The position numbers and the translations under genes are program-made. A DNA stretch of 64,000 nt from Sporobolomyces roseus (lineage: Eukaryota > Basidiomycota > Microbotryomycetes > Sporidiobolales > Sporidiobolaceae), in NCBI GenBank assembly GCA_016617785.1, contig JADILM010000003.1, positions 62,001 to 126,000 on the forward strand, in the 5' to 3' direction. Of this stretch, positions 9,783 to 48,267 are shown piece after piece. Each line of letters starts with the position of its first letter. Positions within the stretch are counted from its first letter, which is position 1. The notes below the pieces were generated by a model. The model made no database searches. It was not told where the DNA came from and saw only the letters and a list, made by a program, of their open reading frames with translations.

Positions 9783-10808
9783 CCGTTATCGCTCCATCGC
9801 ACTTTTCGCCTTTCTCCTCACGACACTCTTTACACTTGTATATCCCCTATGACCCCCACTCTTATGTCTTCATTCGATCTCGAACCCCCCTCGTATTTTC
9901 GTTCGCATGTTCCCCTCATCGTTAGGCCTCGAAGCCATCCTCCGCTCTCCACTCATTCAAAACATGCCTGTCAACGCATGAACTGCAACCTGATTAGATT
10001 AGAATAGAAATGGTCTCGCAGCGCTTTCCAAACTCCGAGAGCGAGAGCAAGAAAAGAATGAAAACGTCCCAAAACGAAGAGCAGTGTTCCCCACGCAACG
10101 AAGCCATACGAAAACACGATGAGATTGTAGACAACGTCGTTACAAAGCAATAGGAACGTGTCTACAGAAGAGGCGACAAGGATTCCGTCAAAAAATCGTC
10201 GATTTCGTTTCTAGCTTTGTTTCGCTCGTTCCGGCGGCTCCTCCCTTCTGTTCGTCGACTCGTCGCTCCTGACTGAAGATGACAAGTTGTCTGGCGAGAC
10301 ATTGCGACCCTTCCACGCTCACAGACTCCCTCGTGAAAAGGGAAAAGTCCGGCGGAGGGAAAGCGCCGCACCCAAGTCCCTCCCTTTCTCTTCTCCGACT
10401 ACCTGACGACGCAACGAATCTCCATCAACGCCTGCCTGTTTGACGAGGGGCGTCCGTAAGTGCTGCGTGCTTTTTAAGGTGGTCGTGGTATTTTGCGTTT
10501 GTTATGTGAAGTTTCAAACAGGATCCGTATTCCCAAGTTGTAATATTGAGCGATTTTTCGTCGAATTCCAACGCGCGTTCGACTCGTGGTTTCCTGCTGC
10601 AGCTTCTGCTGACCGAAGATTCTTTTGGCTTCTTTCGGAATGACGGAACGGATTAGTTCATCTTCCCTCTCTTGCTTCTTTCCTCCATCCTCTCTCCCTT
10701 CAACAAATCTCTTCAATCAGCCCGCTTTCCTACGAACACTCTTCGTCGGAAACTTGAGTCTTCACTTCACCTTTACTCTCACCCTTCATCCTCTCTCAAG
10801 ACTCTACA
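9783..10808. other. CLU1 3' region and oxidoreductase promoter
   Basis: The unique part (9783-10253) should hold the CLU1 3' UTR. From 10254 on the sequence is the right inverted-repeat arm and serves as upstream region of the complete oxidoreductase gene. No further gene seen. Confidence 0.5.
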
Positions 10809-11317
10809 ATGGTTAGCAACTCGGCCGCGTGGATCAAAGCTCCCAAACAAAAGCTCGAAGTGGATTCGGCAGAGGCACCAACAGCTCAAAAGGGCGAAGT
10901 CGTCGTCAAAGTGAGTCGTTCGATTTTCTATTCCCGCTTTCACTCCTCCTCGAATACTGATTGATTCGTGCTTCCTCCTTCCTCGTAGGTTCACTCCGTA
11001 TCGATTCAGCCTGTAGACTGGAAGGTGAGCAGCTCGAGTCTTCTGTCGTTCTCTTGCCCAAAAATTGACGCTCTTCGTTCCTTGCTCCAGATTCGAGAAT
11101 ACGACTTCTTCGTCAAGAAGTACCCTTTTATTCTCGGCACCGACGTCGCAGGTGTCGTTGAGCAAGTTGGAGAGGACGTTTCGCATGTCAAAGTCGGAGA
11201 CCGTGTCCTTGGGTCAGTTTCGCTGTCTTTTCCTCCTTTCCGACGACCCACTCCGAAGGGAACTGACAACTCGTTGGCTGTCTTGCACTACAGCCACGCT
11301 CTCGGATTGGGAACGAG
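10254..11317. repeat. Right arm of the exact 1.06 kb inverted repeat
   Basis: Reverse complement of 1-1064. It covers 555 bp upstream of the complete oxidoreductase gene, its exons 1-3, introns 1-3 and the first 24 nt of exon 4. The inner boundary near 10254 is sharp. The outer limit is set only by the window edge on the other side. There are no terminal inverted repeats, transposase or target-site duplications to suggest a mobile element. Confidence 0.95.
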
Positions 11318-25141: not shown

Positions 25142-26038
25142 ACGATCGGCCTACCTCGTCAAGAATCCGTGCGGAAAGTCGTCGGAATGGAATAGAGGAG
25201 TCCTTAATTTGGATTATCCGCTCTCATCTTTCGACTATCCTTACCTACTCTCTTCTCCCCCCTTCCTCTTCCTATCTCGCTTCCATCCTCTATAACATCT
25301 CGATATCTCCCTGTTTCCCCCTTCTTCTCCCTCAAAAATCTCAAAATCCGTACTCTCAAAACGCCCTTCTTCGGTTCCTCCCTTCCCCCTAAATCTCAAT
25401 CCCTCTACAACCGTTCTCTCTCCGATTACCCTACTTCGCTCATCTGTCTTTCTTCCTCCTACAAGAAGTGATTCTCAAGCAGTAAAATCCCCCTTCTCCA
25501 CCCACTTGCGGCACTCTTTTTTCTTTCTGCTTGTTTCTTTTGGACCGTCGTTATTCTACTCTCACGCAAAAGGAACAATTAGGTGTATCGGGGAACGTAT
25601 GGGTCCGGATGATGTAAACAAATACTTTTATGGATCGTTTGAAAGCTTCGTTCTCGCCCGCGTCCGCCTCAGTCCCCAACTCTCTCCCTTGCTCGTTCGT
25701 CCGCTCTGTGTGACTACTGCGACGTCGAAAGCCGTTCGGGATCCAATAGAGCGCGTTGAATGTCTTCGCAAGAAGGAGCAAGCGAGCGATACTCGACCCT
25801 CCAACATGCTCTCAACAACGAAGTCGATGCATGTGATGCACACGAAAGGAAATTGTATTCGAAGACAGAACTGAAAGGAACTAAGTGTCTATTGTGAGCA
25901 AAGCAAAAACGAACAACACAATAAAGCGAACGAAAAATCCAGAATCTGACTGCTAGTCTACAAACCGATTCCTTAGCTGATCCATCAAGGACCAGCTTTC
26001 TATTATATACATCAAGCAATGGAGTAACTTCGAGAAAA
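25142..26038. other. Convergent region after the KH gene
   Basis: Holds the KH gene 3' UTR (CT-rich) and, from 25883, the outer end of the 1.6 kb inverted repeat. Open frames at 25506-25874 and opposite lack motifs. No gene called. Confidence 0.4.
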
Positions 26039-27503
26039 CTACCAGGGATCCCATTCGTTTGAGCGTTCGTCTGCTTCTTCTTGAGTTTGACGATATTTCT
26101 CGAGTCGAAGGTAATCTTGGTGAAGGAGAGAAAGGATGAGCAAGTCGAGAGTCGTCGTAGTAGAACTCTTTTTGTCGTTGGTAGTTTGAATGGGAGGAGG
26201 AACAGCCGAGAAGTAAGAAGCTCGGTTCGAACGATGAAGTTTCGAAGGAGGTGACGAGGAATCGCTTGAGGAAGAAAGAGAGGAAGGGGAAGAGAGGGGG
26301 ATGAAAGGTCGACGTTGTTGAGAGTGTTGAGGGAGGTATTGAGAAGGAACGAGAGACGGGTGAATAGTGAGAGTGGTTCTAGAGAAGCGAGAGTCGGTAT
26401 CGATTCTTGCGAGAGAATCTGAAGTTGGCTTACTTTGATTTCTCGTTGACGATGGTCGTTTCAGCAGTGACAAGAGATTGTTTCGTCTTGTGATCGACGA
26501 GCTATCAGTCGAGTGTAAGTCAGCGGAAGTTCACGACAGGGATTCGATCAGAAAGGAGACTGACTGTGAGAGAACCAGTCTCATCCGATTTCCACCTCAC
26601 TCGTTGACCTTCCATCGTTTTCCAAACTAGCTTTCTGTGCACTCGAAATGAGTCAGCTTAGTAGAGCGAACGAAGGAGAAGAGCGTAATAGAAAACTCAC
26701 TCGCTGAAAAAGTTAGGTCTACTGTAAAAGGTTGATGCTTTGAACTTGCGACTGTTGACAGGTTGAATGTAATCGAGAGAGACGTTCCCTACTTCAATCT
26801 GGAAAGAGAGAGAGAAGAAGCGGAGATTCCGAACGAAATCAGCCCAACCATTCTGTATCCGAATCACGATAGAGGCTCACATTGCGACTGTAGAGAGTAG
26901 ATACATGACCTTCGACGATAGAAGAGTAACGGCTCGAAGCAAAGTAGATAGGAGATTCCGAATCGTCTCGATAGAATGTTGTGTTGTTTGAACTTGACCA
27001 AAATTGTCGACTTGATCCCTTCTAGTGAGAACTAGAGAGGAGTGTTGCATCGTTCTTTTTGAGTTGGTCGATTGTAGAGTAGAGTAGAGTAGAGAAGTGA
27101 GAGGAGAGGAGAGAAGAGAAGAGGTGTGTGTCGACTTTGAGCGGGAAAGGGAACAAGGGAGAGATCTCCGTTCGTACCTGAAATCTCGAACTCTTCCTCC
27201 CTCTCGCTATTTTAAGAATTCAATCGGAAACGAGTTCCCAACGTGGTCCCTTTCAAAGCAGATCCCCATTGAGAGAGAGAAGGGAAGAGGCGATGGGAAT
27301 TAGAAGACTCGAAAGAGAAAGGTACACTTTTTCAACTTTCGCAAGCGGAAATAGAACTGACTCTCTCCTTCTCGTTCTCTCTTGCTGCTATCTGATGAGG
27401 GCAGGTACTCTGTTTAAATCAAGTGGCAGAGAACAGCGTAAGGGGGAAAGGCATGTCAAAGGATATCGAGTACTAAAAAGGTAACACAGTCTAAACCCGA
27501 GAA
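25883..27503. repeat. Left arm of a diverged 1.6 kb inverted repeat
   Basis: Reverse complement of about 46652-48267. It carries a whole small gene (here frameshifted) with its promoter and 3' flank. Paired positions add up to 74152 over most of the gene and 74157 upstream of a 5-bp indel. Scattered substitutions and small indels occur, more in the 3' flank. Ends are fuzzy by a few bases. No terminal repeats or transposase are present. Confidence 0.92.
26039..27050 (-). pseudogene. Frameshifted copy of the orphan (DUF6593-like) gene
   Basis: Equivalent exons are complement of 26881-27050, 26701-26798, 26565-26634, 26434-26501 and 26039-26378, all with the same splice sites as the intact copy at 47107-48113. 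In exon 1 the left copy reads CAAACAACACAACATTC where the right copy reads CAAACAACATTC: an extra five bases that look like a slipped duplication. This shifts the frame after about residue 23 and soon meets a stop. Downstream exons stay nearly unchanged (a few substitutions, for instance in a Thr/Ser run of the last exon), so the break is recent or the copy is still exchanging sequence with the intact one. Confidence 0.85.
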
Positions 27504-27800
27504 ATCGAAAAAATGTGCAAGACCTGTAAAAACACGATGCCAGCTTTGATGAGAAGCACAGAGTACTGGAGGCATGGACGGCAGTCTCGCCAACTTTCCA
27601 GCGCGTGAGAGGAGGCTCACGGTAAACAATTGACGGAAGTTGATCGGTTCAAAGTCTCTCCCAAAGCAGGAGGGAGTAGGGACCGGACGTCGGCAACGAC
27701 CGATAAGAGCGAAAGATGTTGCAGAAGTGCAAGGGCTACAGGTAATGGTAAGTGTGTGCGATGAACAGCGAAAGATAAGAAAATGATCATGTAATCGAGC
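27051..27800. other. Repeat promoter region and kinase 3' region
   Basis: Up to about 27503 this is the upstream part of the 1.6 kb repeat, including a purine-rich tract with AGTAG units near 27070-27085. The rest should hold the 3' UTR of the kinase. No gene seen. Confidence 0.4.
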
Positions 27801-33579: not shown

Positions 33580-34040
33580 TGTTGAGCGAGATTGAGAGAT
33601 TCTTATTGAATGACGAAAAGTTGAACTTGTTGATTCGGACTGCTTCTAGATAGGTGGCGAGCGCAATGATCGAACTATAGTATCGAGTCGCTTGTGAGGT
33701 GGACGCAGAGAAGAATGAGAAGACAGGACGAAGAGAAGCAAGATTGGAAATGATTTCGCAAGTCGAGGTTCGCTTCCGTCAGATCACGATCAACGATCTT
33801 CCCGTCGGTCGATCTGTCGACGAAACTCTCCGCCTCATCCAAGCGTTCCAATTCACAGATGAAAACGGCGAAGTCTGCCCAGCCAACTGGGATCCTACAA
33901 GCAACAAGGCGAGTCCCTTGATTCTCCTTTTTCAGGTCGCAACATGTAGCATCTGATCGTGCTCGTCTTCTAAGCTCAACCTCTCGCATACTCTCTGCTC
34001 AGAGACCCCGGGCGACAGCGCTTTGGAACTTGTTGTTCAT
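33580..34040. other. Phosphatase promoter region with inserted peroxiredoxin fragment
   Basis: Spacer between the phosphatase-like gene start and NUDC stop. Its main content is the inverted piece of the peroxiredoxin gene at 33775-33950. The rest has no recognisable gene. Confidence 0.5.
33775..33950 (+). pseudogene. Inverted fragment of the peroxiredoxin gene (exon 4 plus part of intron 4)
   Basis: The sequence matches the complement of about 36227-36402 in the peroxiredoxin gene, on the opposite strand. It begins within a few bases of the start of exon 4 and runs through the exon, its GC donor and most of the last intron. I count two exon differences, both synonymous (in PVGR), and three in the intron part. 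It encodes the region of the resolving cysteine (EVCPANW) without the peroxidatic cysteine. An ATG at 33750 happens to be in frame, giving a 68-residue chimeric open frame. Presence of intron sequence shows DNA-level copying, not retroposition. Confidence 0.88.
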
Positions 34041-36131: not shown

Positions 36132-37071
36132 TTACTTTTGAGCGGCCGACTTGTCCTTTGAGAAGTATTCGAGCTTGGCGGTAGGGTCAGTCTTGATAGT
36201 ATCCTGTCGGAAAGTAAAAGATCTGAGCTACATGTTGCGATCTGAAGAAGGAGAATCAAGAGACTCGCCTTGTTGCTTGTAGGATCCCAGTTGGCTGGGC
36301 AGACTTCGCCGTTTTCATCTGTGAATTGGAACGCTTGGATGAGGCGGAGAGTTTCGTCGACAGATCGTCCAACGGGAAGATCGTTGATCGTGATCTGACG
36401 GAGAGTACCTGTGTGGTTCATGAGGAAGAGTCAACGAAAAGATCGTTGATTGCAAGAGGTCCCGATTTCAGGAGGTCCCGAAGTGTACCCTTGGGATCAA
36501 TGAGGAAGAGTCCACGAAGGGAAACTCCAGCATCTTCGATCAAGACACCGTAGTCTCGGGCGATCTTCATCGACTTGTCAGATACGAGCTTGAGCTTGAG
36601 ATCAGGTCCGAGTCCACCTTCGTTGCGGTGAGTGTTGGCCCATGCGAGATGAGAGTATTCGGAATCGGTAGAAACGGCGAGAAGTTCAGTGTTGAGCTTG
36701 GCGAAGTCTTCGAGACGTTGATTGAATGCGAGGATCTCGGTGGGGCAAACGAAGGTGACTATCGAGCGAGAAGAAGAAGGAGAAAGTCAGCGAACCTCAT
36801 CGAAAATTGCGAAAAGTCGAAGATGAACTCACAGTCCATAGGGTAGAAGAAGAGTACGAGCCATTTGCCCTTGTATTGATCAAGCTTGACAGTCTGTTGC
36901 ATAGTACGAAGGAGTTGAGTCAGTTGAGATGAACCGGAGAGAATCCAGAGATTTCCACAACATCTGCTGCCCCTGAATGAGTTATTAAGAAGCTAAACTC
37001 ACCTCGAAGAATCCATCTACGACAGCGGTAGCCTCGAAAGAGGGAGCGGGATGTTGAACTCGAGCAGACAT
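36132..37071 (-). CDS. TSA1: Typical 2-Cys peroxiredoxin (Tsa1/AhpC family)
   Basis: Five exons, complement of 37003-37071, 36833-36893, 36489-36758, 36269-36408 and 36132-36203; 203 aa. The peroxidatic Cys lies in FTFVCPTE (about residue 48) and the resolving Cys in EVCPANW (about 170), the arrangement of typical 2-Cys peroxiredoxins that reduce peroxides using thioredoxin in the cytosol. Intron 3 (36409-36488, 80 nt) looks like a tandem copy of the neighbouring exon. Intron 4 begins with GC (AACAAG|GCGAGT); no GT donor keeps the NKDTIKTDP frame. A piece of this gene is duplicated in inverse orientation at 33775-33950. Confidence 0.96.
36374..36517. repeat. Degenerate tandem duplication spanning exon 3 / intron 3 / exon 4 of the peroxiredoxin gene
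   Basis: AAGATCGTTGAT occurs at 36377 and 36439. TGAGGAAGAGTC plus flanking bases occurs at 36421 and 36501. GTAC with flanking purines lies in the matching place of both units. The offset is 62 bp in the first half and 80 bp in the second. The second unit has about 18 extra bases that include a short direct repeat (AGGTCCCG twice, 16 bp apart). The 80-nt intron is exactly one period long. Confidence 0.8.
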
Positions 37072-46541: not shown

Positions 46542-47106
46542 TCGACCTCGGCCACTTAGGGTGTACGCCGTACCGTCGCGCTTCATTGCTCACATTCTCC
46601 GGTTGTTCTTTTCGTCGTTAGTCGTGGTCTTTCTGTCGGAACGTCTCCTTTTCTCGGGTTTAGACTTTGTTACCTTTTTAATACTCGATATCCTTTGACA
46701 TGCCTTTCCCCCTTACGCTGTTCTCTGCCACTTGATGTAAACAGAGTACCTGCCCTCATCAGATAGCAGCAAGAGAGAACGAGAAGGAGAGAGTCAGTTC
46801 TATTTCCGCTTGCGAAAGTTGAAAAAGTGTACCTTTCTCTTGCGAGTCTTCTAATTTTCATCGCCTCTTCCCTTCTCTCTCTCTCAATGGGGATCTGCCT
46901 TTGAAAGGGACCACGTTGGTAACTCGCTTCCGATTGAATTCTTAAAATAGCGAGAGGGAGGAAGAGTTCGAGATTTCAGGTACGAACGGAGATCTCTCCC
47001 TTGTTCCCTTTCCCGCTCAAAGTCGACACACACCTCTTCTCTTCTCTCCTCTCCTCTCACTTCTCTACTCTACTCTACTCTACAATCGACCAACTCAAAA
47101 AGAACG
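46542..47106. promoter_or_regulatory. MFS 3' region and promoter of the orphan gene
   Basis: From about 46652 this is the upstream part of the 1.6 kb inverted repeat. It includes a CT-rich tract with CTACT units just before the ATG at 47107. No other gene. Confidence 0.45.
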
Positions 47107-48267
47107 ATGCAACACTCCTCTCTAGTTCTCACTAGAAGGGATCAAGTCGACAATTTTGGTCAAGTTCAAACAACATTCTATCGAGACGATTCGGAATCTC
47201 CTATCTACTTTGCTTCGAGCCGTTACTCTTCTATCGTCGAAGGTCATGTATCTACTCTCTACAGTCGCAATGTGAGCCTCTATCGTGATTCGGATACAGA
47301 ATGGTTGGGCTGATTTCGTTCGGAATCTCCGCTTCTTCTCTCTCTCTTTCCAGATTGAAGTAGGGAACGTCTCTCTCGATTACATTCAACCTGTCAACAG
47401 TCGCAAGTTCAAAGCATCAACCTTTTACAGTAGACCTAACTTTTTCAGCGAGTGAGTTTTCTATTACGCTCTTCTCCTTCGTTCGCTCTACTAAGCTGAC
47501 TCATTTCGAGTGCACAGAAAGCTAGTTTGGAAAACGATGGAAGGTCAACGAGTGAGGTGGAAATCGGATGAGACTGGTTCTCTCACAGTCAGTCTCCTTT
47601 CTGATCGAATCCCTGTCGTGAACTTCCGCTGACTTACACTCGACTGATAGCTCGTCGATCACAAGACGAAACAATCTCTTGTCACTGCTGAAACGACCAT
47701 CGTCAACGAGAAATCAAAGTAAGCCAACTTCAGATTCTCTCGCAAGAATCGATACCGACTCTCGCTTCTCTAGAACCACTCTCACTATTCACCCGTCTCT
47801 CGTTCCTTCTCAATACCTCCCTCAACACTCTCAACAACGTCGACCTTTTATCCCCCTCTCTTCCCCTTCCTCTCTTTCTTCCTCAAGCGATTCCTCGTCA
47901 CCTCCTTCGAAACTTCATCGTTCGAACCGAGCTTCCTACTTCTCGGCTGTTCCTCCTCCCATTCAACCTACCAACGACAAAAAGACTACTACTACGACGA
48001 CTCTCGACTTGCTCATCCTCTCTCTCCTTCACCAAGATTACCTTCGTCTCGAGAAATATCGTCAAACTCAAGAAGAAGCAGATGAACGCTCAAACGAATG
48101 GGATCCCTGGTAGCTTTACTCGGAGTTTCTTTTATCGCTTGATGTATATAATAGAAAGCTGGTCCTTGATGGATCAGCTAGAGAATCGGTTGTAGAGAAA
48201 GATTTAGGATTTTCCGTTCGCTTTTTTGTGTTGTTCGTTTTTGCTTTGCTCACAATAGACACTTGCT
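46652..48267. repeat. Right arm of the diverged 1.6 kb inverted repeat
   Basis: Reverse complement of about 25883-27503. It contains the intact orphan gene plus roughly 450 bp upstream and 150 bp downstream. The match begins around TCTCGGGTTTAGAC and ends after CACAATAGACACTT. Confidence 0.92.
47107..48113 (+). CDS. Orphan protein, DUF6593-like (basidiomycete), intact copy
   Basis: Five exons: 47107-47271, 47354-47451, 47518-47587, 47651-47718, 47774-48113; 246 aa. The N-terminal 150 residues look like a beta-rich domain (FYRDDSESPIYFAS, EKLVWKTMEGQRVRWKSDE, LTLVDHKTKQSLV, TLTIHPSLVPS). After a Ser-rich insert the chain ends in LDLLILSLLHQDYLRLEKYR. The strand pattern and the final helix remind me of DUF6593, a domain of unknown function known from Basidiomycota; this is a pattern judgement, not a search. 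No signal peptide or TM. Its twin at 26039-27050 is frameshifted, so this is the only working copy in the window. Confidence 0.7.

Follow-up and report, generated by a model that had tools for sequence, protein, structure and literature searches.

The third intron of a Tsa1-type peroxiredoxin gene in Sporobolomyces roseus is a degraded copy of the exons that flank it: its 3' half corresponds to the end of exon 3 and its 5' half to the start of exon 4. From this arrangement we infer, with a probability of roughly 85%, that the intron arose when 62-63 nt of exon were duplicated in tandem in an ancestral member of the Sporobolomyces lineage. A preliminary description of this DNA had proposed birth by tandem duplication of the intron's own exon, and that proposal is well supported by the repeat structure at the splice boundaries.

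The Peroxiredoxin Gene and Its Third Intron

The gene occupies positions 36132..37071 on the minus strand of the window, by which we mean the whole 64,000-nt stretch of DNA analyzed; all features of the gene given below lie on that strand. Its five coding exons (37003-37071, 36833-36893, 36489-36758, 36269-36408, and 36132-36203) form a 612-nt coding sequence (CDS) with a stop codon at its end and encode a predicted protein of 203 amino acids. Pfam domains PF00578, PF08534, and PF10417 are present in this protein, and the AhpC-TSA and 1-cysPrx_C domains together with both VCP cysteines place it with the typical 2-Cys (Tsa1) peroxiredoxins. PDB matches include yeast TSA1 (3sbc). The top public protein match is thioredoxin peroxidase TSA1 of Sporobolomyces salmoneus (Sporidiobolales; 94% over 97%), and the next-ranked matches come from six more Sporobolomyces species (P0002-P0007). 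Searches of the organism's own genome covered 22.4 Mb in 15 contigs; at the protein level they recovered the peroxiredoxin as separate exons, an inverted fragment about 2.5 kb off, and one distant 33% match, and a second full gene of this kind was not found there.

Intron 3 (36409..36488) is an 80-nt, phase 1, predicted spliceosomal intron whose splicing we read on paper. It runs GTACAC...ACACAG, with the junction AAGG/GT..AG/GTACTC, and a branch-like TTGAC stands near its end, with 22 nt between the A and the intron end. Among GT/GC/AT..AG/AC pairs with a spacing of 20 nt or more within 36340-36540, 36488/36409 is the only tested splice pair that restores the conserved product, and the computed spliced product agrees with relatives across the exon 3/exon 4 junction. 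When the intron is retained, the frame stops after 156 codons; it then includes the first VCP cysteine (48) and terminates before the second conserved cysteine (170), which we take to be the resolving cysteine. Introns 1 and 2 have GTGAGT as donor and CTGACT close to the 3' end, where intron 3 has GTACAC and TTGACT; compared with these two, the intron 3 donor looks weak and its branch-like site ordinary, as judged by inspection of this one gene rather than by a scored model. Intron 4 (36204-36268) is apparently of the GC-AG type (GCGAGT...GACAG), and its GCGAGT is kept in an inverted copy described below.

Repeat Structure of Intron 3 and Its Flanks

In the coding direction, intron 3 and its flanks consist of two related units, as the preliminary description had claimed. 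Unit 1 begins with an exonic half, the final 30 nt of exon 3 (36489..36518, TTCGTGGACTCTTCCTCATTGATCCCAAGG), and continues into an intronic half (36439..36488), in which the opening 32 nt of exon 4 recur in degraded form along with about 18 extra nt. Unit 2 begins inside the intron, where the exon 3 end recurs in degraded form (36409..36438) and holds the branch-like site, a pyrimidine stretch, and the acceptor, and it ends with those 32 nt of exon 4 themselves (36377..36408), the source of the intron's 5' half. The final 30 nt of intron 3 thus resemble the final 30 nt of exon 3, and at an equal offset the start of intron 3 resembles the start of exon 4. When the donor boundary is set against the acceptor boundary from -30 to +10, 31 of 40 bases are equal without gaps. 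The repeat strings quoted earlier were found where they had been placed, including the copy of the exon 4 start inside the intron.

That the intron amounts to one repeat period, a further part of the earlier account, holds if later growth is counted; the splice sites recur at an offset of 80, whereas the block ATCAACGATCTT recurs at 62. The two offsets differ because intron 3 contains some 18 additional nt; a second tandem repeat, with a 16-nt unit and located within the intron (36448..36479; two copies, GGGACCTCCTGAAATC and GGGACCTCTTGCAATC, 88% alike), accounts for 16 of these. The extra nucleotides sit inside unit 1, and the junction between the units is clean.

The preliminary description had named similarity at chance level as the alternative to be feared; the alignment and the shuffles came out above chance. 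We compared all GT..AG pairs 45-150 nt apart on both strands of 264 kb, namely the window together with twenty 10-kb samples of this genome. Intron 3 ranks first among the 238,382 pairs, and the runner-up reaches 27/40, in G-rich, repetitive-looking sequence; no other pair reaches the level of intron 3 in the 200 kb sampled beyond the window, in a comparison that would miss degraded introns of this kind. Dropping the splice condition, ungapped repeats of at least 30/40 at offsets of 40-200 number one in the window, which is the intron 3 repeat, and one in the 200-kb sample, at 30/40 (low-complexity filter on). Each half of the intron is separately above chance, the 5' half being a weak copy: none of 20,000 single-base shuffles scored as high as the 3' half does against the exon 3 end, and 20 of 20,000 scored as high as the 5' half, with a single copy of the 16-nt repeat left in it, does against the exon 4 start. 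A joint gapped alignment scored 54; 20,000 dinucleotide-shuffled versions of the intron averaged 22, and none reached this value. Because the best of these shuffles scored 53.5, we give the pair comparison across the genome sample more weight than the joint-alignment shuffle.

Proposed Birth of the Intron

The source would have been a single, uninterrupted exon, in which a stretch coding for about 21 residues was duplicated. Splicing would excise the sequence that begins with the first copy's GT and ends with the second copy's AG, and the protein would therefore stay unchanged. The pyrimidine stretch (CTCTTCCTC) would have come with the copied exon 3 end from the outset; near the junction, one base change or loss could have given the branch-like TTGAC, and AAGG (or AAAG) would have become ACAG at the acceptor. 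The donor GTACAC still resembles the former coding sequence GTACTC. Besides point changes, the internal 16-nt duplication would have followed and brought the intron to 80 nt. This order of changes, like the time of the gain, we infer from present-day sequence.

One part of the earlier account does not fit the segment as it stands, namely that duplication of an AGGT-containing stretch created donor and acceptor at once. The duplicated segment today reads AAGGGT, without AGGT. This sets the AG one base before the donor-homologous boundary, so that a fresh duplication would splice with 1 extra nt, and either an ancestral AAA codon or a 63-nt in-frame intermediate is therefore needed. An ancestral AAA codon would supply a segment with AGGT and exact splicing at once; it is compatible with the data, with AAA accounting for only 1 of the 15 Lys codons in this CDS.

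The coding intermediate would be a 63-nt (21-codon) in-frame duplication between two TGGAC sequences, which lie exactly 63 nt apart in the exon sequence. Since such a duplication stays in frame, splicing would not have been needed at first and the unspliced product would have been translatable, with the splice signals then tuned stepwise. By this route the junction is one G short of expectation, and a base loss there would have produced the TTGAC branch-like site. Equal 5-mers 55-70 nt apart occur at 12 of 8,728 places in the CDS and so are not very rare. This route, too, is compatible with the data, and we give it distinctly less than even odds. An alignment over 62 nt, with one substitution at the junction, is simpler in that it needs fewer changes, although it lacks clear microhomology. 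If true, the 63-nt intermediate would mean that an exon repeat turned into an intron by degrees, and living relatives may hold intermediates.

Two copies could also arise from a staggered double-strand break whose long overhangs were filled in and joined, with an insertion at the same time or later; a different repair route would then have yielded an intron of this same kind. Break repair is the origin assigned to Daphnia neointrons in PMC4202315, and internal direct repeats are frequent in those young introns (55 of 90), a feature shared by the intron described here with its 16-nt repeat. However, the repeats that the Daphnia neointrons have in common with the adjacent exon measure 4-12 bp, versus the ∼62 nt duplicated in the peroxiredoxin gene, and the extra nucleotides lie within unit 1, with none at the clean unit junction. 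We consider fill-in repair improbable.

A mobile or introner-like element was rejected as the source: apart from the query locus, a search of the genome with 36350-36560 listed one piece of exon 4 and nothing else, in a search that skips very common words and would miss diverged introner copies.

Apparent Presence and Absence of the Intron in Relatives

Relatives were sought with exon-sized queries so as to find protein frames read directly from genomic DNA. One such frame, P0121, crosses the intron 3 site unbroken through a 15-residue stretch. Over 117 residues (TFVCP..KAFQ) it matches Rhodotorula pacifica P0010 without a difference, and it reads as non-peroxiredoxin sequence before VTFVCP, the position of intron 2, and after KAFQ. 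A second frame, P0122, is identical to the window's peroxiredoxin over 90 residues of exon 3 and leaves the frame as KGTLPSVR-end. A GLFxID-type motif was located in 108 of the 120 proteins listed (of 1,571 matches), and among these 108 P0122 alone departs ahead of the R in G-x-L-R; a large share of these proteins come from annotation, from transcripts, or from organisms other than fungi and cannot show introns. A third frame, P0241, equals the window's protein in exons 4 and 5 and starts with MNHTGTLRQ, the same reading as the end of the window's intron 3.

These frames suggest that close relatives have intron 3 (P0122 and P0241) and that at least one Rhodotorula is without it (P0121). Because P0121 lacks the intron and P0122 and P0241 appear to have it, the gain probably took place within the Sporobolomyces lineage and predates the window's strain. 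The gain had earlier been called recent; the intron-less P0121 agrees with this, but the two frames that apparently share the intron make it look older than the strain. Loss in Rhodotorula is a possible reading, since the intron-less frame comes from another genus, and it would leave the repeat unexplained. Two further candidates were dropped. The few intron codons of P0122 might have proved that its intron starts like exon 4; among 823 random tails, 3 match the exon 4 start equally well, and 115 do so once the shared TL is fixed. S. carnicolor P0006 (DPQQTVRQ) might have indicated that the intron was called wrongly, but its QQ stands at that place in the peroxiredoxin P0220 as well.

An old intron might resemble its flanks by accident or might have been given exon sequence by gene conversion. 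Eight frames (P0136, P0139, P0141, P0142, P0202, P0210, P0211, and P0236), which we guess to be from Agaricomycetes, depart just past G-x-L-R and so apparently have an intron nearby. They depart about three codons downstream of the intron 3 site, however, and P0121 departs at neither place; comparable similarity is also absent from the rest of the 238,382 GT..AG pairs. We regard an old intron as very unlikely. Least probable of all is that the segment is no intron, being instead a disabling duplication in a pseudogene or an assembly artifact: the donor GTACAC is indeed unlike the GTGAGT of introns 1 and 2, but the copies differ at 9 of 40 boundary sites, unlike a simple assembly duplication, the exons, once joined, can be read through as a single 203-aa frame, the protein search of the genome shows no other full peroxiredoxin of this kind, and the related frame P0241 has the same intron end.

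Relation to Known Intron Gains

Birth of introns by tandem duplication is known but rarely caught, and peroxiredoxin intron 3 is one more example of this known mechanism rather than a new one. Tandem duplication of an AGGT exon segment as an intron source was put to an in vivo test with ATP2A1 (Hellsten et al. 2011; PMC4974935, PMC3443670). Table 1 of PMC3443670 tallies 188 tandem-duplication intron gains, with the basidiomycete Cryptococcus among the species, and cases of imprecise duplication, beyond the narrow Rogers form, are also counted there. The peroxiredoxin intron is like the ATP2A1 model in that an exon segment is doubled, the donor comes from copy 1 and the acceptor from copy 2, and the protein is unchanged; it is unlike that model in its source, which reads AAGGGT and not AGGT, in its second, internal duplication, and in its well-diverged copies.

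As in fission yeast SPOG_01682 and SOCG_00815 (PMC3629103), we find a fungal intron made of imperfect tandem exon repeats, although the fission yeast introns consist of 24-nt units with AGGC and the peroxiredoxin intron of one 62-63 nt unit. The potato RdRp intron (PMC4974935) likewise took its donor from former exon after tandem duplication; its acceptor and branch site come from an older intron, whereas in the peroxiredoxin gene both lie in former exon. Short direct repeats straddling both intron ends are reported in all 213 introns examined in PMC11782384. The peroxiredoxin repeat also straddles both ends, but the reported repeats are 4-30 bp long (mean 11.4 bp) and are read as insertion marks, while the similarity here extends over ∼62 nt and fills the intron. 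In the literature on intron gain, segmental duplication, introners, Sporobolomyces, and peroxiredoxin, within a coverage that mostly leaves out subscription journals, no title on this intron was found among those listed.

For most new introns the source sequence is untraceable (PMC4974935, PMC3629103). Here the source stands right beside the intron, and there seem to be relatives that have the intron and others that lack it; Sporobolomyces genomes could therefore show directly in which order duplication, tuning of the splice sites, and growth took place.

Inverted Copies in the Surrounding Window

At 33775-33950 on the plus strand, about 2.3 kb away and apparently between other genes, lies a 176-nt inverted piece that copies part of exon 4 and intron 4; it differs at 5 positions from 36227-36402 on the minus strand. 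We considered this piece as the source of intron 3 and rejected it; its alignment stops at an AGGT beside the intron 3 end and never enters the intron. The piece looks like a later, separate event, because its 5 differences are far fewer than those between the intron units and because it ends outside the intron. In the region of intron 4, P0241 and the inverted copy both read LLFQV and the gene reads LLLQI; given that agreement, the gene may have changed since.

The region of the window seems rich in inverted copies. The segments 25883-27504 and 46650-48264 form an inverted pair of ∼1.6 kb at 97% identity, which includes 50-nt arrays at 27074-27123 and 47034-47083 that are exact reverse complements. 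Another inverted pair, 1-1077 and 10240-11317, spans ∼1.1 kb at 99.7% and extends past the start of the window.
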